Below are positions 89 to 62,010 of a DNA stretch of 64,000 nucleotides, piece after piece. The DNA comes from Prostheceraeus crozeri. Lineage: Eukaryota > Platyhelminthes > Polycladida > Euryleptidae. Numbering within the stretch: position 1 is the first letter of the stretch; each line of letters begins with the position of its first letter. Location of the stretch: positions 62,001-126,000 of the forward strand of contig CAJQUW010001859.1 of NCBI GenBank assembly GCA_907163375.1, in the 5' to 3' direction. Made by a program: the position numbers and the translations under genes. Below the pieces are notes generated by a model. That model searched no databases. It saw only the letters and a list, made by a program, of their open reading frames with translations, and had not been told where the DNA came from.

Positions 89-1006
89 ATGCATGAGGAA
101 ACGATTCACTTGTTGAGTAATACTCAGCCCAATTTGTTTCCTGAAAATAGAACCAATCATTTCAAAAATCGCTTGGTTCCTTCCATCCCCATGGTCCATG
201 GGGATCAATGGGAAGCCGGTATCTCCGTCGTCAATTTCATCAATACCCTTCAGACAATACCCGTGAATGTCAGCTTTAGTGTGGGGACATTGAAGGATCA
301 TCCTGAGACGATTCCGACCGTCTATACATCCTCTATCCTTCCCATCAAAACGGATTCACCGCGAGGAGAACGCGGTAAACAGGGAGAGCAAGGCAAACAA
401 GGCAAACAGGGTGAACAAGGCAAACAAGACAAACAAGATAAACAAGACAAACAAGGCAAACAGGGAGAGCAAGGCATGTTTACGCGCTTCAACATTCCAC
501 GCGGTATTTATTCGGAGAAGACGTTGATGCAGTGTTTGAATCAAAATCGACAGCATGGTCACAATTTCCACTTTTCTATCACTACATTGGCGCCTCATGT
601 CCATGTTGTCTCAGTGGTCGTACCCACACACTACAGTATGAAACTCCATCCTTTGCTCAAAGACATTCTTGGGTTTAAAACAGACTTACTCACTTCCTCA
701 CAGCAAGCGACTGCCCCTTTGAATTTGAATGCCTTCACCTACAATATTCTCCTGTATTGTAATATTGTAGGCTATAATTATGTAGGAGGTATGAAAACAA
801 ACTGTATGTGTGTGATTCCCTACACGGGGAAAGATTATGGAGATAGTATTCATCATGAATTCCAGAATGTCACCTATCGCCCTGTGAAAAGTCAACAGGT
901 GCAAGATATTGAAATCAAACTCATGTCGGATGATGGTCATCCCATCCCTATGACAGACGGACGGTCCTATGTAAAAATGCATCTTCGACGTCGCGCAATT
1001 AAGTAA
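89..1006 (+). CDS. Penton/minor-capsid-like Polinton protein with collagen-like insert
   Basis: An intact 305-residue protein starting at ATG 89, the first ATG that opens this frame after the upstream stop. Residues 20-50 carry the layout 'N-x3-F-x2-RL ... W-E-A-G-I', like the 'WEVGL' motif at the N-terminus of many Polinton structural proteins. The tail GRSYVKMHLRR is also typical. Between them, residues 93-129 form about twelve Gly/Asp-Lys/Glu-Gln triplets, a low-complexity collagen-like stretch. The likely role is a vertex or fibre-like minor capsid component acting in virion assembly. It has no stops or frameshifts, unlike the capsid and polymerase genes. The penton assignment is inferred from family pattern; a fibre-like protein is the alternative. 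Confidence 0.6.
   Translation: MHEETIHLLSNTQPNLFPENRTNHFKNRLVPSIPMVHGDQWEAGISVVNFINTLQTIPVNVSFSVGTLKDHPETIPTVYTSSILPIKTDSPRGERGKQGEQGKQGKQGEQGKQDKQDKQDKQGKQGEQGMFTRFNIPRGIYSEKTLMQCLNQNRQHGHNFHFSITTLAPHVHVVSVVVPTHYSMKLHPLLKDILGFKTDLLTSSQQATAPLNLNAFTYNILLYCNIVGYNYVGGMKTNCMCVIPYTGKDYGDSIHHEFQNVTYRPVKSQQVQDIEIKLMSDDGHPIPMTDGRSYVKMHLRRRAIK
365..475 (+). repeat. Collagen-like triplet repeat inside the penton-like gene
   Basis: In-frame 9-base-scale repetition (ggc-aaa-cag, gag-caa-ggc, aaa-caa-gac) encoding G/D-K/E-Q triplets. The central part has Asp in place of Gly, which would break a collagen helix. Repeat slippage is the likely source. Confidence 0.85.
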
Positions 1007-1681: not shown

Positions 1682-1717
1682 GAACTAAGCAATCTTAGAA
1701 CATCCGTCCCATCAAGC

Positions 1718-3085
1718 ATGGCGGAAACCCCTGCCTTATTGGATGCGCGTTACGATGTATTCCAAAGTGATAAAGTCGATGTCTCGAGTACTTCTCAGTA
1801 TACGAGCGTTCTGACGCCAGTCAATGGATTGGAAAATCCCGGTACCATTCAATTCACGGTCCCTCGACTAGCCATTCATTGGATGGATGTATGCAATGCC
1901 TATTTTCGCGTGGAAGTACAACTCATGAAACATGATGCGGCTAAAGGAGCAGACGTGCCATGTGAGTCGTCAGACAAGGCGATTATTATCAACAATACGG
2001 CCCACTCCCTCTTTTCCGACATTACTATCCGCTTGAATGAACGCACCATTGAAGGAGGCAATGACTTGTATTATTTGAGAGCTTACCTTAGCAATCTTTT
2101 ACAATATACCAATGATGTGAAGAATACACACATGGTCACACAAGGATTTACTGTTCCTCAAGTGATGTATGACACGGAGTATGATGCAGCGACTAAGACG
2201 ATAAAGACTAAGGCGGTAGAGTTTACAGATAAAGAGAATGCACTCAATCAAGCCATTCTCAAACAATGGTAAGACCACAAATTTAAACGTACCTTTGACT
2301 TTCCCCTGAAATGTAATTTGTTCCAACAAGTGATTGCTCTGCCCCCAGGCATGCAACTGGATCTCATTTTCACCTTGAATAAACCGGAATATGCCATTTA
2401 TGATATGGCACATGCTGCAGGGACGACCTCTACAAAGTACAAGTTCAAAATCACCTCTTTCCAATTGTATATGCCCATGCTCACGACGAATGCAGAACTG
2501 CAATTGAAAACTGCGAATCGACGCAAGACAGAAGCCATTTATTATCGCTACAATGGCATGACCGTCCAACGACAAACGATTGAAAGTGGAGTACAAAAGA
2601 AGACGTTTTCCAATGTGGCTGCTCTATTGAGTCCTAAACTCATCTTTTTCGCGGTTGTTCCCAGTAACTCTTGGTTTGATCCAGGAAATCGTAAACTCTA
2701 TTTTGAAAGGCATGGACTCTCTCAAGTCACCATGACCACCAATGGAGCCATCATGACAGGAGGCACCATCAATTGCAAAGATGATGTGATTGCCTACAGT
2801 CAATTCAATCGTGCGATTCAAGTCTATAACACGAATGAATCATGTGATATTGATTTGGAGAGTTTTACCAAATACTGTTACTTTATCGCCTTTGACTGTA
2901 CCTTGGATAAACAAATCGATAGTGTTCAACCCACCAATACACGTCAATATGGACTGGAATTGCAATTTGAGAATACGACCCGGCAAAATATGGATTTATT
3001 AATGTTTGTCATTCATGACGAACAATTCTCCGTCACACCGGAGAATGCTGTCATCTCCAGTGCGTATATCCCACCCGCTATTTAA
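1718..3085 (+). pseudogene. Major capsid protein (double jelly-roll), one in-frame stop
   Basis: ATG 1718 opens a frame that runs to 3085 except for TAA at 2270-2272; both halves are in the same frame, 455 sense codons in total. The first half has features of Polinton major capsid proteins: 'TPVNGLENPGTIQFTV', 'DVCNAYFRVEVQL', 'HSLFSDITIRLN' and a 'YLRAYLSNLLQY' segment. The second half continues with 'PPGMQLDLIFTLNKPEY' and the second jelly roll. The product would form the pseudo-hexagonal capsomers of the icosahedral virion. A stop near residue 184 falls between the jelly rolls, so the copy should be dead unless the base is an assembly error. It follows the basic-protein gene by 36 bases. 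Confidence 0.88.
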
Positions 3086-3204: not shown

Positions 3205-3837
3205 ATGGGAGACTGGTTAAGCAACACGGAAATCGAAGGAATCATGCAGGGTATGAATCAATTACAAGAGAAACATTTACTCAATGCCTGCATGTGCGAA
3301 GATGATTTTCTCTGTGCTATTCAGTGTAGTTGTCAAACGTTTGCTCATCGCCTTCTCCAATCTTCTTACGTTCCCTTCCAAGGTGTGTTTCCTGCTGATC
3401 TACTTCCTGCTCATTCCCCGGAATCAAAGACACTTATTGTCAATAGTGATCGCTCTCATCAACCTGGCAAGCATTGGTTGGCCTTTTATCAAAATGCGGA
3501 TCAACGCGTGTGCGAATTCTTTGACTCTTATGGACTCACTCCATCTCACTATCCACATGTGACAGAATGGTTATCGACAACACCTTATCCTCTAAACTAT
3601 CGTCGCCCTCTGCGTATACAAGGACCTAAAGCCTATTGTGGTGCTTACTGTATTTACTTTTTAAATCAACGCCCTTTTAACACGTCTATGGAAAAAACAC
3701 TGACCTTCTTTCGAACATTGGATGCTTACGAGAAAGATCAAGAACTCATTCAAACCTACTTGTCCTTCAATGATAAAATTGTCTATTCCTATTTGTATTC
3801 TACATTATCCCATGTTTTGAAGTCAATAAAGAAATGA
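3205..3837 (+). CDS. Adenain-like cysteine protease (PRO)
   Basis: An intact 210-residue protein. It matches the adenovirus-endopeptidase family (C5) found in Polintons. Expected catalytic residues are visible: His90 in 'GKHWLAFY', Asp107 in 'FFDSYG', Gln139 in 'IQGPKAYCG' and Cys145 in the same motif. The family matures capsid proteins during virion assembly. The start is the ATG at 3205; an upstream overlapping frame from 3117 shows no family motif. A poly(A) signal AATAAA (3825-3830) overlaps the last codons. All catalytic residues are kept, so this gene is less decayed than the polymerase. Confidence 0.92.
   Translation: MGDWLSNTEIEGIMQGMNQLQEKHLLNACMCEDDFLCAIQCSCQTFAHRLLQSSYVPFQGVFPADLLPAHSPESKTLIVNSDRSHQPGKHWLAFYQNADQRVCEFFDSYGLTPSHYPHVTEWLSTTPYPLNYRRPLRIQGPKAYCGAYCIYFLNQRPFNTSMEKTLTFFRTLDAYEKDQELIQTYLSFNDKIVYSYLYSTLSHVLKSIKK
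3825..3830 (+). promoter_or_regulatory. Poly(A) signal of the structural block
   Basis: AATAAA lies inside the final codons of the protease gene, whose stop is at 3835-3837. It is the last plus-strand gene before convergent minus-strand genes, so a 3' end here fits. Confidence 0.5.
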
Positions 3838-3954: not shown

Positions 3955-4459
3955 TCATGCACGATAGACAGTGACTGTTGAAGCAATGTCTTGATCACAA
4001 AGGGGACAAGATGACGTTTCAAAGGGATTATAGCATTTAGAACACATAACACTATGAGAACATGGTAGAAAGGGAAGGGACTGTTCCTGTTTAAAACATG
4101 TAACACAGTTGCGTTCACATAATAATTGAAATGTCTCTTCTTCCAATTTCTTTCTAAAGACACTTTTATGGGAAGAGTTATCTGACACATCCGTTGCAAA
4201 TCTCACTTTTTTCACTTTTTTTCACTCCAGATCGCGCCAATGTCATTGTATTGCAATGTGGCAGGGAGAAATCCTCTATCCACCTACGCTCCAAATGGTG
4301 ATTCATAGCGTGCTCATCGAGATCCATGAGTCGATCCACTAATTCACCAGCACTGATCGTTTCATTGAGATGTGTTACAGTTTCTATCGCTTTGAATGAA
4401 TATCCAAGGTCTCTTGCGACAACCCACGACGTTGGGATACTAGTTACTGTCCGATTCAT
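3955..4459 (-). pseudogene. UBA-RING protein of IAP type (E3 ubiquitin ligase-like), frameshifted
   Basis: The likely start is ATG 4459-4457, which overlaps the stop of the TBP-like gene by 20 bases. The first frame codes a helical segment ('VVARDLGYSFKAIETV ... ELVDRLMDLDEH') resembling the UBA domain of IAPs. An A7/A6 homopolymer at about 4205-4225 then shifts the frame by one base. The second frame, ending at TGA 3957-3955, codes a C-terminal RING. Its eight ligands have spacing C-x2-C-x11-C-x-H-x3-C-x2-C-x8-C-x2-C. This matches the IAP RING except for the x8 loop, and is followed by a short tail 'STVTVYRA' like IAP C-termini. No BIR domain is seen. Such proteins would act as ubiquitin ligases on host death or immune pathways; that is inference. 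The shift may be a homopolymer error. Confidence 0.65.
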
Positions 4460-4982
4460 TGAGGGAATCTCCTTCGAATAGGGATTTGAGAATGTGTTCC
4501 ACCAACGATTCCGCTTCTGCAATCGATAAAACACCCGTCACAATCACACTTCCGTTGGAAAAGAAGGAACAGTGTAATTTACCTTTGCGTATTAACGTTC
4601 CGGGAAACAGCTCGCGCTCGTTGGAAATCACTGATGACGATGGCAACTGTTGAATGGTTTGCATGCGGGCTTTTGTATAGTTCCATTGACATTGAACGGT
4701 GCAGGATTTTGTGATTGGGTGGCTGACGTCCAATCCGTAGGGGGTGAGTAATTGGCGCATCTCTTTACAAATACGATCGTAGGTTTCCAGGGAGTGGTTG
4801 CCCAAAATTTGGATACACCCCCTTGGAAAAATCTGTACAGCGACCGAAGAGTTCCATTTCCAATAGACTCGACAAGGGCGTGATGCTCGGTATGTGGCCA
4901 GAGGGAGTTGCGGTAACAATGTCTGCAGTGGTATTGCGGAGGATGCTCTGAGCTCCACCATGCGGTTGCAGATCCTTGACAT
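4440..4982 (-). CDS. TATA-binding-protein-like factor
   Basis: An intact 180-residue protein with two half-similar repeats, the size and layout of a TBP core. Repeat 1 has 'LPLATYRASR' and 'SVAVQIFPRGCIQILG' (residues about 27-61). Repeat 2 has 'NERELFPGTLIRK' and 'SFFSNGSVIVTG' (121-150), each followed by a helix. In cellular TBP the matching segments are '...ELFPGLIY' and 'IF-x-SGK-V-TG'. Three of the four DNA-kinking Phe positions appear kept (52, 126, 140 or 141); the first is replaced by Pro. Start is the first ATG after a TGA at about 5020. The gene overlaps the polymerase 3' end and the next gene by 20 bases. Inferred role: recognition of viral TATA promoters, or interference with host transcription. 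I did not run a profile search. Confidence 0.72.
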   Translation of the reverse strand: MSRICNRMVELRASSAIPLQTLLPQLPLATYRASRPCRVYWKWNSSVAVQIFPRGCIQILGNHSLETYDRICKEMRQLLTPYGLDVSHPITKSCTVQCQWNYTKARMQTIQQLPSSSVISNERELFPGTLIRKGKLHCSFFSNGSVIVTGVLSIAEAESLVEHILKSLFEGDSLNESDSN

Positions 4983-4989
4983 TTTTGAG

Positions 4990-7900
4990 AGTGGGGTGTA
5001 GATACCCCTTCTTCATATAGGCGATGGTTACCGTAGGGAAGGCTCTGATTGGGTAAATACCAACACCGCTTGTCCTCCCAGATACTTAAGGCCTTCTTCA
5101 CTTGCGTCACCGTTCTCATCTCGTGGTGTTGGGATTGGAGGAGGGTTTGTGACACTGTGGTAATGGAATGTTTTTCAAATGCGTCCACATAATTCTGATG
5201 TTTCACTTATAGCTTCTTTGCTTGACACACTCCCTTCATGCGACAGTCGTGGATTTCTTCCTCATTGCCTTTGAGGACAATGTAAGAGTACATCTTGGCA
5301 CTCAAACATACAAACTCCTTCACCCTATCCCCCACACACTCGTCCTTGAAACATCCCAAACGATTCGCATTCTCGGTACGTCTCTCTGGATGACTCACGG
5401 GATAATTTGAGGTATCGAGAACACCTTTCGCCTCCGTATCAATAAAATTTGGGATGTTGTCAAACGAACGCAGCACTTCTTCGCGTGTATACCGGCTGCG
5501 GACTTTGAGGAAGAAGGAGTCTGTGTCCCCACCAATGAGTTCCACTGAGGTGCACGTGTTGTTGGCTTTCCACTGGTCAAACAGCTTGTACATAATAATC
5601 TTGCTGTTGTCCAGGATGCATTGCCCGATATAAATGGGCTTGTTCAAGTCTACCTTGGTCTTGCGCACATTCACCACCACGGCTTTGTCGCTGATGTTGA
5701 AGAAAGATTGGCAATAGGGATGACGTGTTCATTTGCTAAATACATTCGGTAATCGTACAAAATAGTGCTTCACATATTTCCGCACATTCTCCATTGTCTT
5801 GCCGTACAGTGCGTTCACCATCAACTTGTGGAGATTGCGGCGCATTTTCGTTGTTGCCTTGGCGCGTTCTTGCGTATGGTATTGAACATAGGGGCGAATA
5901 TACGGTTCTTGGTTGAAGGAGATCCCGTAATGAACCTTCGTGATATGTAAGCCCTTCTCTACATAATACTTGAGAGCAGCGATATGTACCACATACTCTT
6001 TGCGATTTTCGTGCGTCATCATTAACTTGTTGGCTGAGTGAAAGGGTCGGTTCCCGTTCAACTCTTGCCATAGCTCTTGCATATAGGGAGACATGTCCTC
6101 CCATTTCGCCGTCCCGCGGTAAGGAGCCAATGGTAAATCTTCCGTGGCATCTTGGACGTGTGGGGGATACTCCAAATCGACGCACAGTACATGACCCGTG
6201 GTGCCACTGACATTGTATCGTCTCACCCATTCGTCGTTGATGTCCACCAAGACCTCCGGTCGTACCCAGGCAAAACAATCCTTCGGCAAAGGTCCCATCA
6301 TGGCCGCACCGTATAAATTGTTCGCATCTATATAAAACAGGTGAGTACCTTCTTCTGCTTGCGCGCGGTGTTGATTCACAAATGTCATCCCTCCACGAAC
6401 CAATGCACGTCCAATGCAGACACGTCGCGTATTTCACTTCGAAAGTGTTCGAAGATGTCTGCGAGCAAGGCTACATCCACTGTCAAATAATAGTGGATAT
6501 AATCTTCAAACGTGCTGCACCCCGTCTCTGTCCACGCCTTTTGTGCCACAGCATACTCATCCTCTTCCAACTCCTTCTCACTCAAATCATTGTAAAATGC
6601 TTCCTTCGGAGGCAATTGAGTCTCGTGGATACGATCCCAGCAGTCAAAATATGTATAGGGAAAATATCCTTTCCGAATAGATGTGTGATCGCAATTCGGA
6701 TAGTAGTTGCTCAATATGTGATTTGAGTGAGGAAAGTCACTGATGGTCGTTGACAAATTGATTAGAGAGTCTTTCAAAACTGACATGAATCGATGAATCG
6801 GAGTTTATATATGGTATTGGATGGCATGGGAAGAAAGATGGTCACTCCCAACGTCTTGTCTCCTGACACATAAATGGGCTCGATCCTATACTTATGATCC
6901 AGCTTGGAAAACCCTTGTACAATCACCTGGTGACTGTCATATCCCTTCTAATTGTGAAACAAGATGTTTAATGTGGTCCGGGATTGACGTCGTCGCAGGT
7001 TACATGCATTGCACAGGGTTTGCAGATATTTGCCCGTGATATGATCGTGGTCTCGCACCTTTGTCGTAGGCCCATTCTTTTCACCTTGCTTCTGAGGTTT
7101 TACATCACATCCGCACATGTTACATTGAGCTGACTGTTCATAGTCCCGCATATCATCCTCCGTCAGCGTCATGTTACGCTTCGTCTCTTCCATGTGATTA
7201 AACATCGACATGCTCACCTGTCTGATGTGTGTAATAAAGGCTGGAATGCACTCATTCCCATTATAGATCACCACCGATTCTTTCATGTCCAGGGCCGGAT
7301 GCCACACCACATAGGATCTCACATACGCTGCCGTATGCTTCTTGGACACGGATTCAATCATGCTCTCAATGTCCGCATACATCACAGCGAGGGGTTCAGT
7401 GGTTTTCGCGTGGTCGATAAATTCGTGCGGTTTCGTATCTTCCGGGGTCGTTTCCATCTGAAAAAATCCTCCATCGCATTTGGTTTGATGTTCCAGACGT
7501 TCTTTGTGCGCCATATCCTTTGTCTTTCCAAACTTTATCCCCTTCTCGTAGAAATTAAATCGTAAACTACATAACTGGCATGTTTCAAATCGTTTCACTT
7601 GCGTTTGGCTCATGTTCCGATACCACATGCGAGCACATTTCTGAAAATCCGTCACGGGAAGAAAATGTCCAGACTGATCCTCCATATCGTACCGCGTCAC
7701 CATCACCAGATGAACGATGCGTGTGTTCTCCTTCACAGCTTGACGGACAGGGTATAATTGGCCCACAAATCCTTTACTGTCATGTACGTGGATACGAAGA
7801 ATGACATTGTTCTTCTTCTGTTCGAACTCCTGAATATCCCGTGTATTCATCAACCCCTCTGACGTCATCATGGAAAAGTCTAGATGATAATATTGATTCA

Positions 7901-8849
7901 AATTCAACTTGCGCACTGCAGGAAGCTCAATCTGATAAGTGTTATAGGATGTCTTGGTGCGGGGATCAACACGTTCACGTCGAGGAATGCGATTGTCTTG
8001 GTAGGCAAGTGCATAGAGGACACTGTCTTGAAAACAATGTGATGTATACGTGTTGCGCTGAAACACACATATGCCTTTGCAGAGCTTGATATCTCGGTGG
8101 ATAGGAATCGATGCGCCCATGCGAAAATTAGGGAAGGAACTTGTTTGAACTAGTAACTCCAACACTTCCTTCACCGCAAATCCTGATCCGTCTTCTTGAT
8201 AGTCTTCAATAAATTCTTCAAACTTTGGCACCATGTCACGGAACCATGTATCAAAGTTACGTGCTTGGACGCCTTCGTGAATGTATGAGGGTGTGGTGAT
8301 GTCTCTCACTTCCTCTTCGCCTGTCGACATATTCATCTTGGCAAACCTGAGTCTCATACTCACAAACACTTTCACATCCTCGTGGGGGTGTTGTTGCACA
8401 ATGACACGATACAAGTCCGCATACATTGAATTTAAATATACCTTCCATTCATTCATGGCTTGAGGAGGGGTAAATCGATAATTATATCCGCGACCGTCCA
8501 TGATCCGTTCTTCTTCCACAGCTGCACCGCCCTCTTGCATGAACTCAAACAGGTAGGGACACAAATGTTCATCCCATCCTTCCGCTTCAGCATTCACCAC
8601 TGTATCGCAGTAGCGACACCGTCCCACACACGCATGCTTATGGTACGCCTCTACGTCGAAACTTCAGTCGCAATCCAGACACAGCAAGTCATTGTCATCA
8701 CCATAATTAAACGCGCGGCAATCGTGTTCGTCTCCATACCATTTACAGCACGTCCAACAATAGTTGCGACCCGTCTCCGCTGCTCCATGGGCAATACAGT
8801 CTTGAAAGCGAGAGAAGGACTGACAGCAGAATTCACACGTGTACTGCAT
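4990..8849 (-). pseudogene. Protein-primed family B DNA polymerase (pPolB), multiply disrupted
   Basis: Starts at ATG 8849 with Cys/His-rich zinc-binding segments. Family motifs follow in order: Exo I 'MYADIES', a treble-clef insert with 'VRDHDHITGKY' and 'CNACN', Exo II 'HN...KGYDSH', Exo III 'YLTVDVALLAD', motif A 'YIDANNLYG', 'EDLPLAP', motif B 'KLMVNALYGKTMENVRK', 'KPIYIGQCILDNSK', motif C 'GGDTDSFF', and the C-terminal 'KALSIWEDKR ... LPYG' of Polinton polymerases. In-frame stops are at 8666-8664 (TGA), 6950-6948 (TAG, inside Exo II), 5731-5729 (TGA) and 5209-5207 (TAA). Frameshifts lie near 6780 and 6400; near 6400 the spacer before motif A also looks short. The enzyme would replicate the viral genome with a terminal protein primer. 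This copy cannot make it. The exact 3' end is unclear because the frame overlaps the TBP-like gene. Confidence 0.93.
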
Positions 8850-8886: not shown

Positions 8887-8895
8887 CCTTATATA
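8887..8895 (-). promoter_or_regulatory. TATA box of the polymerase block
   Basis: Minus-strand TATATAAGG lies about 40 bases upstream of the polymerase ATG at 8849. The position suits a polymerase II promoter for the minus-strand genes. Confidence 0.5.
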
Positions 8896-8929: not shown

Positions 8930-9020
8930 CGTGCTCCGATTGGTGCTCCGTGCTCATACCCCAAGTGCGCCGATGCGTGGGCGTGTGCTCCGTGCTCTGA
9001 TGCGTGGGCGTGTGCTCCGA
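8930..9020. repeat. GTGCTCCG-rich direct repeats near the Polinton right end
   Basis: A 21-base unit beginning GATGCGTGGG occurs at 8972-8992 and again perfectly at 8999-9019, a 27-base period. Shorter GTGCTCCG copies lie just before it. GC content is clearly above the surroundings. Short repeats are common in Polinton terminal inverted repeats, but the left terminus is outside the window, so I cannot confirm one here. Confidence 0.6.
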
Positions 9021-9400
9021 TGAATGGAGCAAGGACATGTACTTTAGTGCAAATGTTGGTGAAAGGGGCTAGACTTGACTACTTATATAGCCCTACCAGT
9101 ACCTGCACTGATACTCATTTCTCAGGACTCGCTATCCTATGAATTAATTTAGGTGTCTTAAGGGTTCGGTTACTCACTCGAATCAATGATATTAAGATTG
9201 ATAGTCTGATGACTACGAAAACCTGATTCATAGCGTACATGCAGAGTGCAGTTTGGTAATGGTTGAATAAGAATCATGGTCCTAGGTCGACTTTACGCTA
9301 ACCAGAGATATGTCGTCTCATTAACAATTTTGTGAACTTGAACTGTTTGAAATTCGTTGATACTTGCATGTAGATAGAATAGAATGATACGATAGAATTC
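9021..9400. other. Polinton/LINE junction region without genes
   Basis: No convincing coding sequence. A second minus-strand TATATAAG lies at 9081-9090. The Polinton right end and the LINE 5' end fall somewhere here; I cannot place either exactly. Confidence 0.4.
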
Positions 9401-9826
9401 ACAGAACGTGGTGAACGGTTGTGTCTGGTGAAGCTCGTGTTCAAGTCTGTGCAACATCATCGGTTCGGATATTTCGTGTCACTCAACTTCGTGGATTTTT
9501 ACATCGATCGAATCGTCTTCGTCTGCTCAGCTTCATCATCTTGTGTGAATTATTCAGTGTGCTCATCGCTATTCGCTATTGGGATTTATCTACCTCTGTG
9601 AACAGTCAGGCTGATATCTGCTCAGTCCGTCAAAGTCTGTACTGCCATCGCTTCAAGCCAAACGTCTCTGATCGATACAGCAACAGCGTTTCTACGCTCT
9701 CCAATTATCAGCGTTCTCTCGATCTACCGAATTTGTCAATCCGCTGGTGTTGTGGTTCTGTAACTGGATCAGCAATCTCAAGGTATCGAGTTCGAATCCC
9801 GTGATATCTTTTTGTTGCGTCTCAAC

Positions 9827-10573
9827 ATGCCTGATCAACGACAATTGAGGTCCAATTCGGTTTCAAACGATACACCTTGCTCACCCACTCTGGCGAGTAT
9901 TCGCACTATTATGGAAGAGTCGAATCTTGAAACTGTTGCATCTCTTCAGGCAGTTAAGCAGGAGCTGGAACTCCTTCGAAGTGAATCTCGTTCCCTTCAT
10001 TCACGACTGGATGGCATCGAGGAGACGTTGAAAACCCACCGTGACATTCAGCAGAGACATAAAGGGGAAATTACCGAGCTTCGAGCAGCGGTTGAACATG
10101 TCTGTTCCACGCACGCAAATATGACCAACGACATGATGAACGAAATGGATGAAAGAGAAAGAAGGAAAGACAACATCGTCATCTACGGGTTGAAGGAAAA
10201 GGAGACTGAATCTCCATCAGAAAGGAGTCAGCACGATAAGGAGAAAGTACAAAGCATTGCCCAGTATCTAGAAATAGAGGGACTGTCCATAACCAAACTC
10301 CATCGTTTGGGGAAAACTGTTGCAGGAAAATCTCGCCCACTGAAAGTATGTCTTCGGGATCACTCCCACAAACTCGAATTTATCAGACGATCGAAAAGAT
10401 TGAAGGATTCGAGTGAATTCAAAAAGACATTCATCAAAGCAGACCTTACAAAGGCACAACAGCAGAAACAATTTGAGTTGCGTGATGAATTACGACACCA
10501 AAGGCAAGCTGGTTATGATGTCGTTATCTATAATGGTCAAGTACGACTTCGCGACAATCTTTTTCGAAAGTGA
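9827..10573 (+). CDS. LINE ORF1, coiled-coil plus RRM-like protein
   Basis: Intact from ATG 9827. Residues about 35-100 are heptad-rich (coiled coil). 'RRKDNIVIYGLKE' then begins an RRM-like fold, as in L1- and CR1-type ORF1 proteins that bind the element RNA and act as chaperones. No Cys-His knuckle is seen. The stop TGA overlaps the GTG where the ORF2 frame opens. Confidence 0.75.
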   Translation: MPDQRQLRSNSVSNDTPCSPTLASIRTIMEESNLETVASLQAVKQELELLRSESRSLHSRLDGIEETLKTHRDIQQRHKGEITELRAAVEHVCSTHANMTNDMMNEMDERERRKDNIVIYGLKEKETESPSERSQHDKEKVQSIAQYLEIEGLSITKLHRLGKTVAGKSRPLKVCLRDHSHKLEFIRRSKRLKDSSEFKKTFIKADLTKAQQQKQFELRDELRHQRQAGYDVVIYNGQVRLRDNLFRK

Positions 10574-13136
10574 TTTTATCGTCTCCCAAGTTTCCGTCCA
10601 TTTTATTGCTCAACGCCAGATCCATCTATAATAAGCTCGATGAGCTCAGATTGATTGTAGCCAGTCATTCTCCTAATGTGATTGCAATAACAGAAACGTG
10701 GCTAACTGATGATATTCCGGACGACTCTTGGCTATCAGGGATTACTGCTTGTTTCGTGCAGATAGAAGAGAGCGGTTAGACGGAGGTGTTTGTGTTTATC
10801 TACACAAATCATTTCAAGCCTCAAGAATTTTACACGATGATATTCCTGGAATAGAATTTGTTGCCGTCCGGATATGTGATTTGAATCTTGTTCTGTTCTG
10901 CGCCTACATCCCACCAAATCTCATCGCGTCTACGCATCATAAAGTAGCAGACTGTATCTGCAGACTGTATGTGCATACTGTATCTTCTTTAGACACTGTA
11001 AAAGAGAGCAAATTTGTTATACTTGGCGATTTCAACGACTTCAAGACCGATATGTTTCGTTCAAACTTTCAAGGTGTCAACAAAGTGGAATCTCCAACAC
11101 GCGGAGCCTCATTTCTGGACCAAATTTGGATAAGTGATGACCTCTCTGAGCATTACCCTGAAGTTGCTAAAGTTTGCCCACCAATTTCTACTTCAGATCA
11201 TAGTTGTGTTATCCTTCGTCCAATCAATGTCATGAGGAACAATAAGACTGTTTCGAGAATCTCCACACTCTATGACTTCAGGAAAACGAATATTGATTGC
11301 TTCTTGTACTATCTGTCGTGCTCGGATTTTTCGCTAGTGTATAAGGCGTCTTCTGTTGATGATCAATGCAAGATGTTTTATCAAGTGTTCTACTCTGCCC
11401 TGAGTGTTATTCCTCAACGTGTCGTTGTAATGTACAAAGAAGATAAGCCATGGCTTACTCCTCTCTTGAAGAAACTAATCGATGATAAGTGGCTTGCATA
11501 CCGTGAGAAGAACTGGCCCGTGTTTAATCATTTTGAGAAAAAAATCAGAGGAGAGATTTTTAAAGCCAAAATGTCATGGAGTGATCGTGCAACACTCAAC
11601 ACTAACAACGCCTGGAACGTTGTGAAAGAATTCCACGGGAAAAACTGTCGCAGCCACTTTCCTGAAGATGGTTCGAAGTTAGTCACCTTCCTAAGCGAAT
11701 TGTCAAATTCTTTTTCTGCGAATTTCAACACCGCTGACGATGCTGACCTGTGCAATATTCTTGACGACGAATCCTGGAACATCAGTATCGAGCTGAGAGA
11801 CGTGTACCAGCCTCTCAAGAAACTGCCATTCAAACAAACCACCGGTTATGACAGTTTTTCGGCTCGCCTGCTGTGGGAAAGTGCGGACATTATTTGTGAA
11901 CCACTGTTGGATATCCACAACTACTCCATCAAGACTCGAACATATCCTCAAGTTTGGAAGAACGCATTAGTATGTCCAGTGCCGAAGAAATCCAACCCGA
12001 ATATTGGTGACTATCGACAGATCTCTCTTGTACCTATTCTGTCTAAAGTGTTTGAACGCTTAATTCTGATGAACATGAAGGACAAGTTTATCCCTTTATT
12101 TGGTGAAAATCAACATGCATTCAGACCTAATGGATCGACGACAAGTGCCCTCGTTGACATTCACGATCGAATTACCCTGCAAATGGAGGACAAACAAACC
12201 ACATGTGTTAGAGTAACTTGCTTGGATTTCGCAAAGGCATTCGACAGAGTACAGTTTCATCGCCTGCTCAACATTCTCATTGCGTCAAATCTCGAACCAG
12301 GATTTATCCTTTGGCTAAAGTCGTACCTGCACGATCGTTGTCAAAGAATAAGCATTCGAAGCAACACTGGTCCATTGATTTCAATCTCATCTGGCGTGCC
12401 ACGGGGATCGGTACTTGGACCTTACATGTTCGCTGTGTTTATTGGAACGCTAAATGTTGCAGCAGACAACCAAACCAGCTCCCTTGTGAAATACGCTGAT
12501 GATCTCACCCTAATTGAAGTGTGCTCGATAGACTCTCCCAACCCCGACTTCCTGAATTTGATCCAAACGTGGTGTCTGGCGAATTAGATGGAACTTAACC
12601 GTAACAAGTGTCACCAGTTAATGATTAACCGAGTTCGCAGATTCTCCGTTGCTCCGTACGACATGATACAAGTTGTTTCCAGCTTAAGTATCCTTGGCGT
12701 TATTTTGGATGACCAGCTTAAATGGACCGCACACTTTAACAAAGCAATTACAACGGCGTCTCGCTGTCTGTATTTGCTCCGAGCTTTAAAGCCATTTGTT
12801 CCTCAAAGACAACTGCTGGAAGTGTATTGTTCCACAATACAGTCGATCATGATGTATGCATCCCCTCTCTTCTGTAAGCTGCCTTCGTCTGTCCTGAAGA
12901 AGCTAAATCGTTTGAAGAAGAGGGCACATCGCGTAATTTGTGATCCAGATTGCAGATGCTCAATCATGCCAGACATTTCTACAACACGTGATAGCTTGGC
13001 TTTGAAGTTCCTCTCAAAATGCAATCTCTCCACGCATCCTCTTCGAAATCGTGTTCCTGCCATTCTCCCGCGGACCCGTTTAGCTCTACGGCAAGACGTT
13101 CTAACTCATTCATTCCTTCACTTGTTCCTTACATGA
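10570..13136 (+). pseudogene. LINE ORF2 (APE-type endonuclease and reverse transcriptase), disrupted
   Basis: Begins with the endonuclease: 'LNARSIYNKLDEL', 'AITETWL'. A one-base frameshift lies near 10735, after which 'GDFND' and 'SDHSC' endonuclease motifs follow. RT motifs are 'CLDFAKAFDRV' (A), 'SSGVPRGSVLGPY' (B) and 'KYADDLT' (C). An in-frame TAG at 12585-12587 falls just after motif C, before 'LNRNKC'. The frame then runs to 13136. No ATG precedes the endonuclease domain, so translation may depend on reinitiation after ORF1. Confidence 0.88.
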
Positions 13137-36082: not shown

Positions 36083-38330
36083 ATAAGTCATAAGTCATAA
36101 ATGTTTATTCTGAAATATACAGAAAACGCAAAGCGATGGCCGCAAGGGCACTTACAAGTAAGCGTTGATAACACGTGCAACATATGCATACGCAAAGTTT
36201 AGCATCAATAAAAAATACATGAGATATATATATTTACAAATTTACCGAGTGATGATGATGTACATGCACATCATGAACAAATTATATGACACCTACATAT
36301 TTACAAATTTTAAGAGTCATCATGATATACATCATATAGACTACCATATACAAAATACGTGAAATCTATAGGGCCTATATTTACAAATTTGAAAAGTGAT
36401 GATCACGACATGATAAGAGTTCACTGGATGGGAGTCCTCACAATGGAGCAAAAGAACGTAAATGCTTAACATCTAATATAGAAATGAATGTAACAAAATC
36501 ATCTATACAAAATTCACACTTTAATGATCATGGTCACAATATATGCAAATTCACTCGGATCAATGAGATTGAGACTCTTATTGATCTTCATTATAATGAG
36601 AATCATCTTCAATATGGAATATAGGAATGTATATAAATAAAATTTACCATCAGGTATGAAAAGCACTTGTCAAATAATTTTATACGAAAGCACATATTAG
36701 CAGTCACAGTATGAGCAAAATTCACTTAGATCAACTGATTTGAGTCTTTTCTTGAACATCATGAAGGTTGGAGCTTTCACTATCGAGTCGTTCAATGAAT
36801 TCCATATTTTAATGACGCAAAAGAAAAGCAATCCACTGAGATAGTTCGAATTAACTTTTAAGACTGGCACAATCTGACAGCTGTTACGTGATTGACCTCG
36901 AGTAATTTGAGATGAAAGGTAGGTGGCAAAGAAAGAGTTGAGCGACAAGTCGAAATGATTATAGTATAACAGTTTATACAAGAAGTACAAGTCCAACAAA
37001 ATGCGCCTATATTCTAGAGATATTAATTTAAACAATTGTAAATCTATGAGAATAGCTGTCATACTTGATACCAGATCGTTTACAAACGATGCGGGTGAAG
37101 AATCTCTGGACACGCTCAATACGGAAAACGTCGCGTTTGAGGTACGGTGAAAAGATTACACTTCCACATTCCAAGAGAGGGCGAACAAAGACAACAAAGG
37201 CTTTCATTAAGATACGGGAGTTGTGGCAAACGATAGATTTTAGGATACAGTATGCTCTGGCATATGCGGTTGAGCTGATGCGCGCACAGTGATCACTAAA
37301 TCTGAGATCTGATGAGGTCAAAAAGCCTACGTCTTTCACAGTGACTGAATTTTTCAGGGATACGCTGTCAAGATGATAAGATGTTAAGATGTCAAGTTGA
37401 CGGAAGGAGCATATCGATCTCCAGCAGTAAACAGTAAGCTTTTTTGCATAGAAATCTTCAGTTGCCATGTTCTACACCAATTATCAAATTTGAGAAGAGT
37501 ATGTTTTAGGTCTGAGGAGACTTGTGAAGAGGAGGTATAACTTCTGGTTGACATAAATTTCAAGTCATCAGCATAAAGGCAGGCTGAAGTCTGTCCAACA
37601 AGGCAGTAAAACACGTCATTGACATAAAGAAGGAACAATACAGGTCCAAGAACAGAGCCTTGGGGCACGCCACTTGTAACAGCTACCTCGTCCGAAGTGA
37701 TGGTGTTGATTAGGACTCTCTGAGTTCGATTACATAGATAATTATTAATGCATTGGAGCAATTGACCATTGAAACCATGGCTTGAGAGTTTATGGAGAAG
37801 CTTAGGTATTGATACTGTGTCGAAGCCCTTAGAGAAATCAATGTACACGCAATCGAAGCGTTTATGGAGACTTAATGCAGAACACATTTCGCATATCGAA
37901 CTGAACATGTGTGTAACTGTTGAACATCGGGGAAGGAAACCGTGCTGTTCCATGGATAAAAGCTTATGGTTCATTGTATAGGAATATATTTCATCAGAAA
38001 TTACCCTTTCCATGACCATACAACAGCCAGAGGTAAGTAAGATCGGGCGATAGCTCTTGGGGGAAGAGGAGGATCATTTGTTCTTAAAGACTGGACAGAC
38101 TAGAGCTTTTCTCCAAGTAGATGGTAATTTGCCGGTTGACATGGATAGATCAAAAATGCAACTTAATGGGAATGCGACAGTACTAGCAAAACGTCGAAGA
38201 ATAAGTAAAGGGATATCATCAGGAGTTTGTGATAATTTAGGCGGCAACCGTTCTAGAGCTCTTTCAACAAGTTCCGGAGTAAAATGAATGAAATCCAGAG
38301 ATATTCCGAGGATATCTTTCTATTCTATGC
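36083..38330 (-). mobile_element. Jockey/CR1-like LINE, 5' truncated
   Basis: RT coding is on the minus strand, followed by a 3' UTR ending in AATAAA and a short ATGACTT tandem repeat at about 36083-36110. The repeat is read as the element's 3' tail. It lacks ORF1 and the endonuclease. It sits inside the hAT-like element. Confidence 0.75.
36697..38290 (-). pseudogene. Reverse transcriptase of the minus-strand LINE, frameshifted
   Basis: Fingers start with 'TPDDIPLLILRRF' and 'WRKALVCPVFKNK', then a stop near 38080 and a frameshift into 'SYRPI'. Motif A is 'YIDFSKGFDTV', motif B 'SGVPQGSVLGPVLF' and motif C 'YADDLKF'. The C-terminal connection continues through two more frame changes (about 37430 and 37100) to 'FKKRLKSVDL', ending at 36697. 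Confidence 0.85.
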
Positions 38331-46572: not shown

Positions 46573-47520
46573 TCACCAGGCCGTGGGCGTCCCTCGAAGT
46601 GGTCTTCCTCTCTTCGCTCGTCCTTCCACTTCGCCTTCGATCGTCGCCAACACCAGACTGTCAGGTCTCCGCTTCCAATGCGTGTACTTTGCGCATTTCC
46701 ACCGCTTGATATTCTCCAGTAGTGCACTGTTCTCTGGCACTTCCACTTTGTCTCGCACCCAGTTTGTCCTCCGCTGACACCAGTTGATCATTAATCTCCG
46801 CCAGACCCACATCTCGAACGCATGGATTCTCCTTTTGTCCACTTTTCTCAATTTCCAACTCCCTGTTCCGTACGACTCGATGCTCCTTAAGTTGTTTCAT
46901 AAGTTGTTTCTTCAAGCGCAGGCTGATGTCTTCGCTCTTCCACACATCCACATGCTGGTAGTTGGCATTTCTGGCTATGGCCAAACGTATTCTAATGTCT
47001 TGCTCACTGCTGCCTTTCGCCGCTACAGTGAGTTCCAGGTACATGAAATGCTGTACGCGGTTCATCGCTGTGATCCCAACTGCAGGTGATTGTTGCACTT
47101 GCTGTTCCGAGGTAGCCGCTGAAACAGGTTTTGAGGTGTTGATTTGTAGCTCGAAAATCTCGCAAGGCTTCTTAAGCAGCTGTGCCTCGCGCTCCAACTG
47201 GATCCGATCGCTCGCCAATAAAGCTGTATCATCAGCGTATCGGAGGTTCCACAGAGCACGCCGTCCAACAATTATACCTGCGCGTTCAGTCAGTTCGGCT
47301 TTCCCTCTTCGCGAGATGTCTTCTCCGTACGTGAGAAAAAGTAGCGGCGATAGATGGCAGCCTTGTCTTACTCCCCGTTCAAATCTGAATTCAAGCAGCA
47401 CCATCAGAGCGTAAAAGCGATGAAAATGTTCCTGATGACGTCATTGGTGATCTTCCCAATGAGATCAATGACCTTCCTCCGACCGCTACGAGTCGCTGAC
47501 GAAAGCTGTTGTGCGAAGAT
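46573..47520 (-). pseudogene. RTE-like reverse transcriptase relic
   Basis: Minus-strand coding with 'KVIDLIGKITNDV', motif B 'FERGVRQGCHLSPLLF', motif C 'LRYADDTALLA', the palm/thumb continuation and, after a frameshift near 46850, 'RRIHAFEMWVWRRL' and 'GRAKRGRPL'. This order is typical of RTE-clade LINEs. Motif A and the endonuclease are missing, so it is a 5'-truncated copy. Confidence 0.8.
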
Positions 47521-47569: not shown

Positions 47570-49448
<1,879 letters not shown>

Positions 49449-49457
49449 GAGAGATAG

Positions 49458-52400
49458 GGAGAGGAGACAGAAAGATCACGGTATGACAATGATGACCACA
49501 ATAGTAAGGACTTTGATCTCAAAATATTTTATGTAAATGTTAATGGGCTGACTAAATTTAAATTGGAAAACTCAGATATCATTGATGATGCTCAAAACGC
49601 AGATATTATTTGTTTGACAGAAACCCATTTGAATTATGAAAATGAACCCATTTCAATAAATAATTATGAAGGTTATCATACATGTGGTAGACGTAGTAAC
49701 TCATTGGGTAGAAATGTCAAAGGAGTATCTGCATTTTTTAAAGAAGAAATCAGCAATTTAAACGTGACGAAACTAGTCTCTGAAAACGGTAATATCGTGA
49801 TAATGAAACTTTGTCATACCGATTGGAAAGAAATTAAAGAAATGTTTTTAATATTATGTTATAGAGATAATCGTGAATCTAGATATGCAGAGAGAAATTT
49901 TCTAGATAAAATCAAAAATTACATTTCTATTTACAAAATGAAAAATGTTGTTATGATTGGTGACATGAACGGAAGAATAGGTTTAATGAATGACAATGAA
50001 CATCTGGATATACCATCTAGAAATTCGGATGATAAACTCATCAATAAATATGGAAAAGAACTAATTGAATTTTGTAACGATACTTCCCTTATAATCACTA
50101 ATGGTCGATTTGAAGAAGGGAAAAGTACATTTTATAAAAGAAATAAGGATAGCAACTGCACATCTGTAATTGACTACTTATTGATATCAGAAACCATGCT
50201 GAAATATCTGAAGGCCTTTGAAATAATGGAACCAAAACTGTATACTGATCATACGCCGATGACAATTCAATTCAAGATAGATTTAAAAACAAAAATTAAT
50301 AAAATGCGACCAAATGTTCAGAAAAAAAGGGATAAAAAAATTGTGCCATTTAAGTGGACTAACGAAGATGAAGAGAATTTTAAATTTCATGCATTTCAAA
50401 ATAATTGCGATAAACTAAGAAATGATATTCAATGTGGAAATATGCAACAAAAAGAAATTTACGATCAGTTTCTAAAATACACACATGACGCTTCTAAAAC
50501 AGTAAATAAAATAAAATCAAGAGCAATTTACAGTATAGAAACCAGGAAAATTAGACAAGAATATAAAGCGTCGGTTGAAAAGTGGAAACTAAATGAAACA
50601 GATGAAAATCTAGCCCTTCTTCTAGAATCAAAGAAGACATTAAACAAAAAAATCAAAAGAGAAAGGCAAAAATTGCAATCGAAAAAACTGAATGATCTTA
50701 AAGATGCCAAAAATAGCAATAATTATAAAATGTATTGGCAACTGATAAATGGTAAAAAATATCATTCCAAAATAAAAGCCAAAACTTCACTGTGTGCAGA
50801 TGATTTTAAAAAAGAAATTGAAAATAAAGACAAAACTTTAACTAAATCAAATTTGGAATTATGCAAGACAATCGATTTTTCAAGCTTAAATGAACTGAAT
50901 GTAAACACATATGTAACTCTTAATGGGAAGATACAGGAAAAAGAAATCACTGAATCTTTGATGATGATGAATAATTCTAAATCTAGCGGACCTGACAAAG
51001 TTGTATATGAAATATTAAAGAAAAATATTGAATGTACTTTAAAAGTTCTTGAACATTTGTTTAATAAAATAGTAGAGGACCAAAAAACTCCATGGAATAT
51101 AAGCTGGACGACACCTATCTTCAAAAATGGAGATAAGAATGATGTTAATTCATATAGATTCATAAATTTATCCTCATGCCTTGAAAAACTTTTAACGAAA
51201 ATTTTTAACAACCGTTTAAATGATTGGATTGACAGGCATGATTTACTTCATTCAGCTCAGATTGGTTTCAGGAAAGACAACTCCACAGTCGACAGTGTTT
51301 GGATTTTGAAAGAAATAATGCAAATAAGTAAGAATGCTAAAAAGCCACTGTATCTTTGTTTTATTGATCTTTCAAAGGCCTTCGATAGCATACCAAAGAA
51401 TATGCTGATTTCAAAATTAAGAAAAATTTTACCTCAAGGAATGTTCATTAATCTACTAGAAAATATACTCAATTGTAAAACATATAAGATTCTATATAAT
51501 GGAGTAGAAAGCAACATTTTTAATTTAGAAAATGGTATTCCTCAGGGCGACAGTCTATCACCGACCCTATTTTGCTTATATATGAATGACTTGCTACTAA
51601 ACCTAGATGAGAACATATTGAAGATTGATCCTATAAAAGTTGGAAATTTGAAAATTGCTTCTTTAATCTATGCTGATGATATATTGCTAATGAGCGCTTC
51701 GAAACAGGGACTAATTCAACAAATCAAAATCACCCAAAACTACTGCTATGAAAACTGCTTAAGCATTAATTATGATAAAACAAAAGTTATGATTATCAAT
51801 AAAAAGCATGAATATAAACAAGTAAATGTAGAATTAAATGGAAAAATATCATCAATTGAAATAGTGGATGAGTATAAATATCTTGGTGTAATTATATCCA
51901 AAAATGATAAAAGACATATTTCAAAATTATCAGAGCGAGGTAAAATTTCAGCATGTATAACAGGAAAAACAATGAAAGAATTTGGTTACGTAGACGGTGA
52001 AATATTGCGAAATTCGTTTGAAATGCTAACTCTCTCCAAAATGAAATACGGTGCTGAATTATGCTTTGATAAAAATCTGAAGGATTTAAATAAAATACAA
52101 ATACAATTCTTCAAAAAATTCTATCGTTTAAAAAAAACAACACCAAATTATTGTATCATTGGAGAATTTGGAATCAGACCTGTAGAATACCATTTTTTTA
52201 AAGCTGCGATAAACTACTGGCTAAAATTGACTAAATTAAATGATAAACAACTGATTAAGCAAATATTCAACAGTGTTTATGTAAACATAGAAAGTCCAAA
52301 TTTTAATAAATCTTGGATATCACGGATAATCAAATTAATGAGAAAACTCAACATTGATTACTTATGCAACCCTCATGATATTGACGAAAATATAAATTAC

Positions 52401-52859
52401 AAGTCCAAAGTAAATAATCGCTTAATTGAATATTTCAGACAACAATGGATTGAGAGTGCTAAAAATAGTCATAAAGGATTGAAATATTTAGAACTATGCC
52501 GGTTTGAATGTAATCTAAAAACGTATCTGAATTTAACAAATGACAATAAAGTAGTTCTTCCAATTTTGAAAATAAGAACTGGCAACCACACACTATTTAC
52601 TGAAATCGGTAGATATAATGACAGAAGATCATACAATGAATGTATATGTCAAAATTGTGACAGTGATGATATCGAAGATTTGGTGCACTTTGTCTTGCAT
52701 TGTTCAAAATACATTGATATAAGAAGCAATTTCATTCCCTTCTTTAAAGCTGATAATAGAACAGATTTCTATGATGCGATGAACAGGCTGAATCTAAAAC
52801 AGATGAAAATGCTCGCAAGATATATCGAGGAAGCAAATTCAATCAGAAACTCGGATTAA
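49458..52859 (+). CDS. Intact endonuclease-reverse transcriptase polyprotein of a non-LTR retrotransposon
   Basis: One open frame of about 1130 codons after TAG 49455-49457, without internal stops. The endonuclease part opens with 'FYVNVNGLTKFK' and 'ICLTETH', with 'MIGDMNGRIG' and 'YTDHTPM' later. RT motifs are 'YLCFIDLSKAFDSI' (A), 'NGIPQGDSLSPTLF' (B) and 'IYADDILLM' (C). The C-terminus has a Cys-His knuckle ('CICQNC ... HFVLHC'). No ATG lies before the endonuclease, and upstream sequence is the GA tract, so the 5' end is probably truncated. Codon use is very AT-rich. It is the best preserved element here and may be young. Confidence 0.9.
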   Translation, partial: GEETERSRYDNDDHNSKDFDLKIFYVNVNGLTKFKLENSDIIDDAQNADIICLTETHLNYENEPISINNYEGYHTCGRRSNSLGRNVKGVSAFFKEEISNLNVTKLVSENGNIVIMKLCHTDWKEIKEMFLILCYRDNRESRYAERNFLDKIKNYISIYKMKNVVMIGDMNGRIGLMNDNEHLDIPSRNSDDKLINKYGKELIEFCNDTSLIITNGRFEEGKSTFYKRNKDSNCTSVIDYLLISETMLKYLKAFEIMEPKLYTDHTPMTIQFKIDLKTKINKMRPNVQKKRDKKIVPFKWTNEDEENFKFHAFQNNCDKLRNDIQCGNMQQKEIYDQFLKYTHDASKTVNKIKSRAIYSIETRKIRQEYKASVEKWKLNETDENLALLLESKKTLNKKIKRERQKLQSKKLNDLKDAKNSNNYKMYWQLINGKKYHSKIKAKTSLCADDFKKEIENKDKTLTKSNLELCKTIDFSSLNELNVNTYVTLNGKIQEKEITESLMMMNNSKSSGPDKVVYEILKKNIECTLKVLEHLFNKIVEDQKTPWNISWTTPIFKNGDKNDVNSYRFINLSSCLEKLLTKIFNNRLNDWIDRHDLLHSAQIGFRKDNSTVDSVWILKEIMQISKNAKKPLYLCFIDLSKAFDSIPKNMLISKLRKILPQGMFINLLENILNCKTYKILYNGVESNIFNLENGIPQGDSLSPTLFCLYMNDLLLNLDENILKIDPIKVGNLKIASLIYADDILLMSASKQGLIQQIKITQNYCYENCLSINYDKTKVMIINKKHEYKQVNVELNGKISSIEIVDEYKYLGVIISKNDKRHISKLSERGKISACITGKTMKEFGYVDGEILRNSFEMLTLSKMKYGAELCFDKNLKDLNKIQIQFFKKFYRLKKTTPNYCIIGEFGIRPVEYHFFKAAINYWLKLTKLNDKQLIKQIFNSVYVNIESPNFNKSWISRIIKLMRKLNIDYLCNPHDIDENINYKSKVNNRLIEYFRQQWIESAKNSHKGLKYLELCRFECNLKTYLNLTNDNKVVLPILKIRTGNHTLFTEIGRYNDRRSYNECICQNCDSDDIEDLVHFVLHCSKYIDIRSNFIPFFKADNRTDFYDAMNRLNLKQMKMLARYIEEANSIRNSD

Positions 52860-54697
<1,838 letters not shown>

Positions 54698-54842
54698 GTA
54701 TATTTCCAGAAAATTGAAAATCATAATTACAGTGATAAGTGAAATCATGAAAGTCACGTGCTCGAATTACAACTATAAATACAATTTTAGCTACCGTTTT
54801 TACATAGGTAAAACATCCACGACAAGCCGTGGATTTCTCCAT

Positions 54843-58487: not shown

Positions 58488-58489
58488 TC

Positions 58490-61220: not shown

Positions 61221-61224
61221 AAGG

Positions 61225-62010
61225 TCGAGGAAGAATATGTTCTGGCAAATGGCAACAAGATCAATCATCTCTTATGGATGATATGAAATTGTATTGCAAG
61301 AAAGAAGCAGAAACTGACAGTCTCATCTGTACGATAAAGATATTAAGTGATGCAAGGATGAAATTCGGATTTAGAATATGTGCAAGATAAATAGAGGTAA
61401 AAAATGAATAATAAATGAGTCAAAAATGCTCAAGGCCTGCACATCAAGGAAGGAGTCATCCATAATGTGAACAGAGGTGAATATAAGTACTTAGGATACT
61501 GAGGAATCAACCAAAGCCAAAAAAGATTACAAGAGCTTACTGAAAAAATCTTGAAATCAATTCCATGCAAAGTACAAGTTTTATGCTATTGCCATGTATA
61601 TAATCCCTGCGATAAACTACCTGGAAGCATCAAGAGGTGGACTTAATCAGAGTTTAATCAAAATGATTATGGGAGAGATTAATCAAAAAGCAAAGATTAT
61701 GATTAATTTGTGCAAATGTTTGCCTCCAAGACCTGATATTGACCACCTATTCTTAGACCTCCCACGAGGATAAGGAGGTAGGGGATTGAAGAATATCCGC
61801 GACGTACCCGAGGGGGAAGAGAAGAGTTTCAACCACTATATCTGGAATAGTAGTGATGATCTCCTGTTGGCGATGGTGTAAGCAGTTGATTAGTGCACAC
61901 GGAAACCGGGTAAGATTTCAGAAATGTAAAACAGTGGAGATAAAGAAGAGACATGAGAAACATTCTCCATACCGAACCGAAAGCCGAAAGTGGTTGATCG
62001 CATCCCAGAA
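61225..62010 (+). pseudogene. R2-like reverse transcriptase relic
   Basis: Across several frames one reads 'MDDMKLYCKKEAETDSL', 'GEYKYLGY', 'CLPPRPDIDHLFLDLPRG', 'GGRGLKNIRDV' and 'YIWNSSDDLL'. This is the order found after motif C in RTs annotated as R2-type ('MDDLKLYAKS', 'GYKYLGI', 'HPRADVDRLY', 'GGRGL'). Many stops and shifts show that it is old. Confidence 0.65.

Follow-up and report, generated by a model that had tools for sequence, protein, structure and literature searches.

It has been proposed that many eukaryotic DNA viruses descend from Polintons, and we know of no account of how these elements choose and read their promoters. The stretch of DNA analysed here (64,000 nucleotides of contig CAJQUW010001859.1 from the polyclad flatworm Prostheceraeus crozeri, hereafter the window) contains part of such an element, with a short intact reading frame for a protein that resembles the TATA-binding protein (TBP). 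This raises the questions of whether the protein is a TBP homologue, whether the gene regularly belongs to these elements, and what use an element might make of it. Positions refer to the window unless the contig or another copy is named, and the features are collected in Table 1.

An earlier note, made from the letters of the sequence alone, had recognized the two-repeat layout of TBP in the 180-residue protein. This reading was borne out. The motifs that it had quoted are present (repeat 1 has QIFPRGCIQILG, repeat 2 both RELFPG and SFFSNGSVIVTG), and the Pfam check that it had proposed gave a match to PF00352 in two stretches of the protein (Pfam-A, E = 7.2e-12, 45.4 bits, curated cut-off 22.9). 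In a sequence search of the PDB, nearly all of the 34 chains at E ≤ 10 were TBPs, with archaeal proteins first (best E = 1.4e-4). A profile of 72 relatives matched the M. jannaschii TBP in the PDB with an E-value of 3.9e-25, and because profile positions 3-175 were aligned, the match covers both repeats. A chance motif match is ruled out by the Pfam, PDB-sequence and profile matches. Judged from these sequence comparisons, the protein is a divergent TBP homologue and not a canonical TBP; we file it as divergent because the phenylalanine of the site that we take to be yeast F99 is replaced, which leaves three of the four DNA-kinking phenylalanines.

Searches of a protein collection returned 9, 62 and 273 matches in succession. 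Among the best 120 of the 273, four were named, all as TBP, and the rest were unnamed; the remaining 153 could include cellular TBPs. These relatives are known from protein records alone, and their origin is likely also in Polintons. No relatives were found in IMG/VR viral contigs, phage records or PHROGs.

The element around the gene is bounded by a terminal 26-mer that occurs inverted at contig positions 46125 and 71083 (the comparison of the terminal inverted repeats spans the terminal 26 bases only). The enclosed 24,959 bp lie within the 15-40 kb of Polinton/Maverick elements, which likewise have terminal inverted repeats. Alignment of 32 other element copies, from a sample of 40 candidates scored among 846, placed the right end at 9083-9089 in 28 cases (three of them via a second piece), at 9075-9076 in two and at 9019 in two. 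Genome-wide, 61 ends of this kind were located, and among them are 23 inverted pairs spanning 24.6-29.3 kb. At least 16 of these 23 elements contain TBP, among the TBP matches listed, in which the other seven have no match; in the 16, the far edge of the TBP gene lies 4,640-4,819 bp from the near element end. TBP is thus a regular gene of Polintons of about 25 kb. A domesticated host gene is ruled out, since the TBP copies lie inside elements with inverted ends and the host TBP is a separate gene, with two matched exons 15 kb apart. A host locus resembling TRF2/TBPL1 was found at one place in the genome, with one frame of 131 aa; possession of TRF2 is what one expects of a bilaterian animal.

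The earlier note had further advised a search for the gene in other Polintons, and within this same genome TBP occurs in four lineages: A (with the window copy), B (including an outlier, B2), C and D. Close copies of the window TBP are abundant in the 2.05-Gb assembly, with at least 150 matches at 95-100% identity, 149 of 150 without a stop codon; the matches were listed in order of score, so that intact copies are favoured. The fetched loci yielded 60 full-length TBP ORFs, or 56 distinct ones after removal of second fetches; among the fetched copies, some are interrupted or incomplete. Sites with a lineage signature (up to 3 mismatches), which count copies or fragments rather than intact genes, numbered 324 for A, 5,729 for B, 1,570 for C and 3 for D, with none for each of the reversed controls. 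The whole-genome sum of 7,626 signature sites would amount to a very large Polinton load if most of them are elements. Within the pieces fetched, TBP is homologous across all four lineages, the integrase is common to A and B, the protease and putative structural ORFs to A, B and D, and polymerase stretches to A, B and C. The pN/pS ratio within lineages was 0.12 for A (300 pairs), 0.42 for B (66), 0.50 for C (45) and 0.45 for D (3 pairs), values that are biased low, for A most of all, because copies were chosen by protein score.

Table 1. Features of the Polinton in the window, with positions, strand and remarks.
Feature	Position	Strand	Remarks
ORF with collagen-like GKQG repeat	89..1006	plus	weakly similar to lineage B and D ORFs
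YTARGYWA	1685..1692	plus	candidate second-class promoter element before plus-strand ORFs
Two adjacent ORFs	1718-2272, 2318-3085	plus	homologous to lineage B ORFs; first also to lineage D
Adenain-like cysteine protease (Polinton PRO), borderline	3205..3837	plus	Pfam and adenovirus protease chains
RING-finger ORF downstream of TBP	3959..4537	minus	overlaps TBP 3' end; limits by offset from L025:1946-2527
Polinton-encoded TATA-binding protein (TBP), lineage A	4440..4982	minus	180 aa and stop, intact
B-family DNA polymerase region	4628..8849	minus	several broken frames in window copy; start codon 8849 assumed
TATATAAGG box	8887..8895	minus	46 bases upstream of assumed polymerase start codon, window copy
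Right inverted end of element (AGTAG...)	9058..9083	minus	left end outside window, contig 46125

We assign the element to the Polintons because its inverted ends are combined with a chromodomain integrase, a B-family polymerase and a borderline adenain-like protease. The integrase lies in the adjoining part of the same element (locus L009; rve 3.4e-12, Chromo 4.8e-8). The protease scored 20.7 bits with Peptidase_C5, against a cut-off of 21.3, and matched adenovirus protease chains of the PDB at E = 0.001. The polymerase fragment at 6385-6786 of the window copy reached E = 9e-4 with DNA_pol_B_2, below the cut-off; in copy L019 the gene is open throughout the part retrieved, and the match has an E-value of 1.1e-12.

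In lineage A the end of the polymerase gene overlaps the start of TBP in another frame. The earlier note had pointed to an intact TBP beside a polymerase riddled with stops. The polymerase of the window copy is indeed broken, but the contrast does not extend to the family: in 27 of 29 other copies, chosen by TBP identity, the polymerase frame stays open throughout the fetched part, beyond the point at which TBP starts. Given these 27 open upstream frames, and since an ORF of 543 bases is a small target, we rejected the argument that an intact TBP next to a broken polymerase shows selection on TBP in the window copy.

The RING-finger ORF has 193 aa in several other copies and is shorter here (frame 4178-4534). 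Its version in copy L025 matched zf-C3HC4_3 with E = 1.3e-10, and it is possibly an element-encoded ubiquitin ligase. The two adjacent ORFs at 1718..3085 perhaps represent a structural gene; their lineage B homologue had no match in the PDB. Within the collagen-like ORF, positions 355-471 are a run of 9-base repeats coding for the GKQG-like collagen repeat. Between the integrase and the collagen-like gene, contig 58279-62000 (L009 6279-10000) holds a frame of 1,240 aa that is open to the locus end and had no Pfam match. None of the ORFs tested, taken from the element apart from 5.9 kb on its left side, gave a Pfam match to a packaging ATPase or a double jelly-roll capsid protein.

Beyond the right end, the DNA at 9397-10000, just outside the element, is repeated elsewhere at 90-98% identity; seven places match from 9397-9415 onward, as an unrelated repeat beside the insertion. 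The rest of the window contains RVT_1 ORFs at 10728-12587, 37384-38019, 46661-47404, 49563-52859, 55001-56587 and 57602-58426, which are several non-LTR-type retroelements. The ORF at 49563-52859 also has an endonuclease domain, and that at 10728-12587 has one below the cut-off. Long (GA)n arrays occupy 54053-54694 and 49314-49475. The ORFs at 53985-54842 and 54051-54698, which are long and of low complexity, are explained by the first of these arrays.

What the protein may do was approached through the residues by which TBP contacts DNA and TFIIB. In PMC7221094, the L5.1 phenylalanine of each lobe is assigned to DNA and the C-lobe residues E284 and E286 to TFIIB, and the human TBP variants E284R and E286R are described as reducing transcription. 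We compared these sites in the 56 distinct full-length genome copies (A 30, B 12, B2 1, C 10, D 3), chosen by TBP score, and in a family set of 75 (the 72 members of alignment A4 plus a single copy from each of the lineages B, C and D; 71 of the 72 are unnamed database proteins known from protein records alone). The TFIIB-contact glutamates, E122 and E124 of the window protein, are glutamate in 56/56 and 55/56 genome copies (one Asp) and in 74/75 and 75/75 of the family. The L5.1 phenylalanines (F116 and F207 sites) are each present in 56/56 and 75/75, and the phenylalanine of what is presumably the F190 site in 56/56 and 74/75. The yeast F99 site, in turn, is proline in 56/56 genome copies and in 71/72 of the wider family.

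Further positions, with presumed equivalences, are well kept in repeat 2 (N159 65/75, V161 65/75, T215 74/75); the repeat 1 counterparts gave 60/61 for N69, 2/67 for V71 and 0/75 for yeast T124. Based on these counts for the two repeats, the TFIIB-facing half of the predicted protein is nearly canonical and the other half is rebuilt in one common way. As repeat 1 is without one kinking phenylalanine and without the threonine matching T124, DNA bending may be weak.

The N-lobe was compared by region rather than by the position labels of PMC7221094. The helix-2 region, which serves TFIIA, TAF1, Brf1 and Mot1, has basic residues in the host at positions that are basic in 2 to 28 of 73-75 family members. 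The eukaryotic N-lobe basic patch for TFIIA, TAF1 and Mot1 was thus not found in the Polinton TBP. Other basic N-lobe positions are kept (host R31 in 72/72, R38 in 52/75), and escape from regulators may therefore be partial.

The conserved glutamates direct attention to the source of TFIIB. PF00382, the TFIIB family, had four matches at two loci in 2.05 Gb, and the second host locus may be BRF1, a label that we guessed. No amplified TFIIB of the PF00382 family accompanying the elements was found genome-wide, a result that covers TFIIB recognizable by PF00382; in the same search, no TFIIB of its own, as in the TBP-TFIIB pair of giant-virus type, was found in the element. Since the TFIIB contact is kept and no TFIIB is brought along, host TFIIB would most simply be used.

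The candidate promoter boxes are TATAAAAGG, TATATAAGG and YTARGYWA. The earlier note had seen a TATA box in the block of the TBP gene. This holds for the TATATAAGG box before the assumed polymerase start and fails for TBP itself in lineage A, where none of 30 copies has TATAWA within 90 bases upstream of the gene. In the other lineages, TATAWA precedes TBP at a nearly fixed place: at -43 in 9 of 12 copies from lineage B (a further one has it at -48/-40 and two lack it) and in the single B2 copy, at -43 in 5 of 10 copies from lineage C (another has it at -58 when a later ATG is taken, and four lack it), and at -46 or -47 in all 3 copies of lineage D. Before element ORFs in general, TATAWA at -60..-35 did not exceed a random-position null in any of the four lineages (A 1/31, reached in 628 of 2000 draws; B 1/8, 284; C 1/7, 271; D 1/12, 906). 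The longer TATAWAAGG was found in 0/31 for A, 0/12 for D, 1/8 for B (17 of 2000 draws) and 1/7 for C (46 of 2000). Because TATAWA is not enriched, the TATA argument depends on the constant position of the box in three lineages that have diverged.

The other motif, YTARGYWA, stands 32-37 bases before several plus-strand ORFs of lineage A, where 19 kb of element DNA contain 11 occurrences, every one of them on the plus strand. Sites about 31-39 bases before an ATG were found in lineages A and D (window 57, 999, 1685 and 3217; L009 936 and 1361; L010 4910 and 6333). At -45..-20, lineage A had the motif before 5 of 32 ORFs (null mean 0.26, reached in 0 of 2000 draws), a test that is circular because the motif was found in the same data. 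Lineage D had it before 2 of 12 (reached in 14 of 2000 draws), its sites having been glimpsed before the pattern was fixed, and B and C had it before 0/9 and 0/7. Allowing later ATGs gives six ORFs in A and, near a locus end, one in C. We regard YTARGYWA as a candidate mark of a second promoter class, a lead and not a result.

That the Polinton TBP directs element promoters or competes with the host factor, as the earlier note had proposed, is something we infer. Taking the residues and the TFIIB search together, we consider it somewhat probable that the element TBP brings host TFIIB and RNA polymerase II to the promoters of the element while evading some of the host regulators of TBP. The first element genes would be read from ordinary TATA-type promoters. 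The element TBP would then bind element promoters, with the well-kept C-terminal repeat doing most of the gripping and kinking of the DNA, and would draw in host TFIIB and hence RNA polymerase II. The rebuilt N-terminal repeat may alter promoter choice and may free the protein from some regulators (TFIIA, TAF1, Mot1/BTAF1). The fold, DNA binding, TFIIB recruitment, timing and regulator escape are all predictions here. In an extended form, which is possible but doubtful, there would be a two-stage programme: early genes (polymerase, TBP) would be read from TATAWAAGG-type boxes via host TBP, and structural genes from a second class of promoter via the element TBP with its commonly rebuilt repeat 1, host TFIIB and RNA polymerase II. 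In lineages A and D, the mark of this second class is perhaps a YTARGYWA some 35 bases ahead of the ATG. If the programme is true, it would work with one dedicated TBP and no viral TFIIB; we know of no smaller viral pre-initiation system.

The same residues could also serve a competitor of host transcription, which would occupy host TATA boxes or tie up host TFIIB and so lower host expression. The kept TFIIB contacts and most C-lobe DNA contacts, along with the mostly lost helix-2 basic surface, would suit it. A pure competitor, however, would have no need for the common repeat 1 changes (the proline at the F99 site), and strong host shut-off would be hard to square with so many inherited copies of the element, so that we think this role unlikely. 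Overlap of the lineage A gene with the end of the polymerase gene could instead suggest a factor that has lost its role in transcription and now bends DNA or binds ends during replication, packaging or integration. This too we hold improbable, as a DNA-only role leaves the two nearly invariant TFIIB-contact glutamates unexplained, and as the lineage B gene adjoins the protease, with a polymerase fragment some 3 kb away in L015.

Recruitment of BRF1, a factor of RNA polymerase III, in place of TFIIB, for small element RNAs, is made conceivable by the second TFIIB-family locus of the host, if the guessed label holds. PMC7221094 also states that Brf1 and Brf2 bear an arginine able to meet the first glutamate. 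We nevertheless rate this reading as very improbable, for the element genes are protein genes and the boxes were found before ORFs. The broken polymerase of the window, together with the incomplete or interrupted state of part of the fetched copies, might point to a decaying relic of a captured gene with no present function. Such a relic is a rather poor prospect given that four lineages keep TBP, that its diagnostic residues hardly vary and that pN/pS is 0.12 to 0.50, although for residues and ratios alike the copies were chosen by score.

With the classical Polinton/Maverick set, the element shares the B-family polymerase, chromodomain integrase and inverted ends and, as a borderline match, the adenain-like protease; TBP does not, to our knowledge, belong to that set. 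In the literature searched, from which most subscription journals fall outside, we found no report of a Polinton, Maverick or adintovirus TBP. The words TATA and TBP are absent from the text of PMC11071308, PMC10120064, PMC10328495 and PMC4642659, and occur in PMC12220804 only as unrelated matches in the reference list. The passages with both words in PMC11464507, PMC12085832, PMC7786948 and PMC11788076 concern giant viruses or references. The Polinton TBP is thus apparently unreported in the accessible literature.

TBP homologues in some large DNA viruses, which the earlier note had mentioned, are on record in PMC7221094, PMC4602308, PMC11464507 and PMC12085832. Those of phycodnaviruses, megavirus and ASFV (B263R) resemble the Polinton protein in being virus-encoded with two TBP lobes. 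According to PMC7221094, viral TBPs keep the L5.1 phenylalanine in 90%, show about 40% conservation at C.L3.2, often with loss of the TFIIB glutamates, and are, outside the poxviruses, nearly always accompanied by a TFIIB-like gene of the virus. The Polinton TBP, in contrast, keeps both glutamates, and no amplified TFIIB of the PF00382 family was found. Mirusviruses, large plankton viruses with TBP in 59% of genomes (PMC10132985), can be likened to this case by description, not by sequence; the Polinton TBP sits in an animal element of about 25 kb. Putative mirusvirus-related elements of a green alga have sporadic TBP genes (PMC10675990).

The herpesvirus TBP mimic ORF24 of KSHV is likewise a viral TBP-like factor, which replaces TBP on viral promoters and works with host Pol II. 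It needs all four phenylalanines and is without the TFIIB glutamates (PMC12529657), whereas the Polinton TBP shows the opposite pattern, with three phenylalanines and both glutamates kept. The animal paralogue TBPL1/TRF2 is also a divergent TBP with an altered repeat 1, its N.L5.1 residue being Trp (PMC7221094). It differs in being a host gene, at a single locus here, whereas the Polinton TBP is multi-copy and lies inside mobile elements.

For those who annotate genomes, an apparent 'TBP expansion' can be a mobile element. The findings suggest that viral TBPs are seemingly not limited to large viruses with a TFIIB of their own. These elements also offer many naturally occurring variants of TBP, with which one can ask what residues determine the choice of promoter. 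A dedicated TBP would give a concrete handle on how Polintons choose their promoters.
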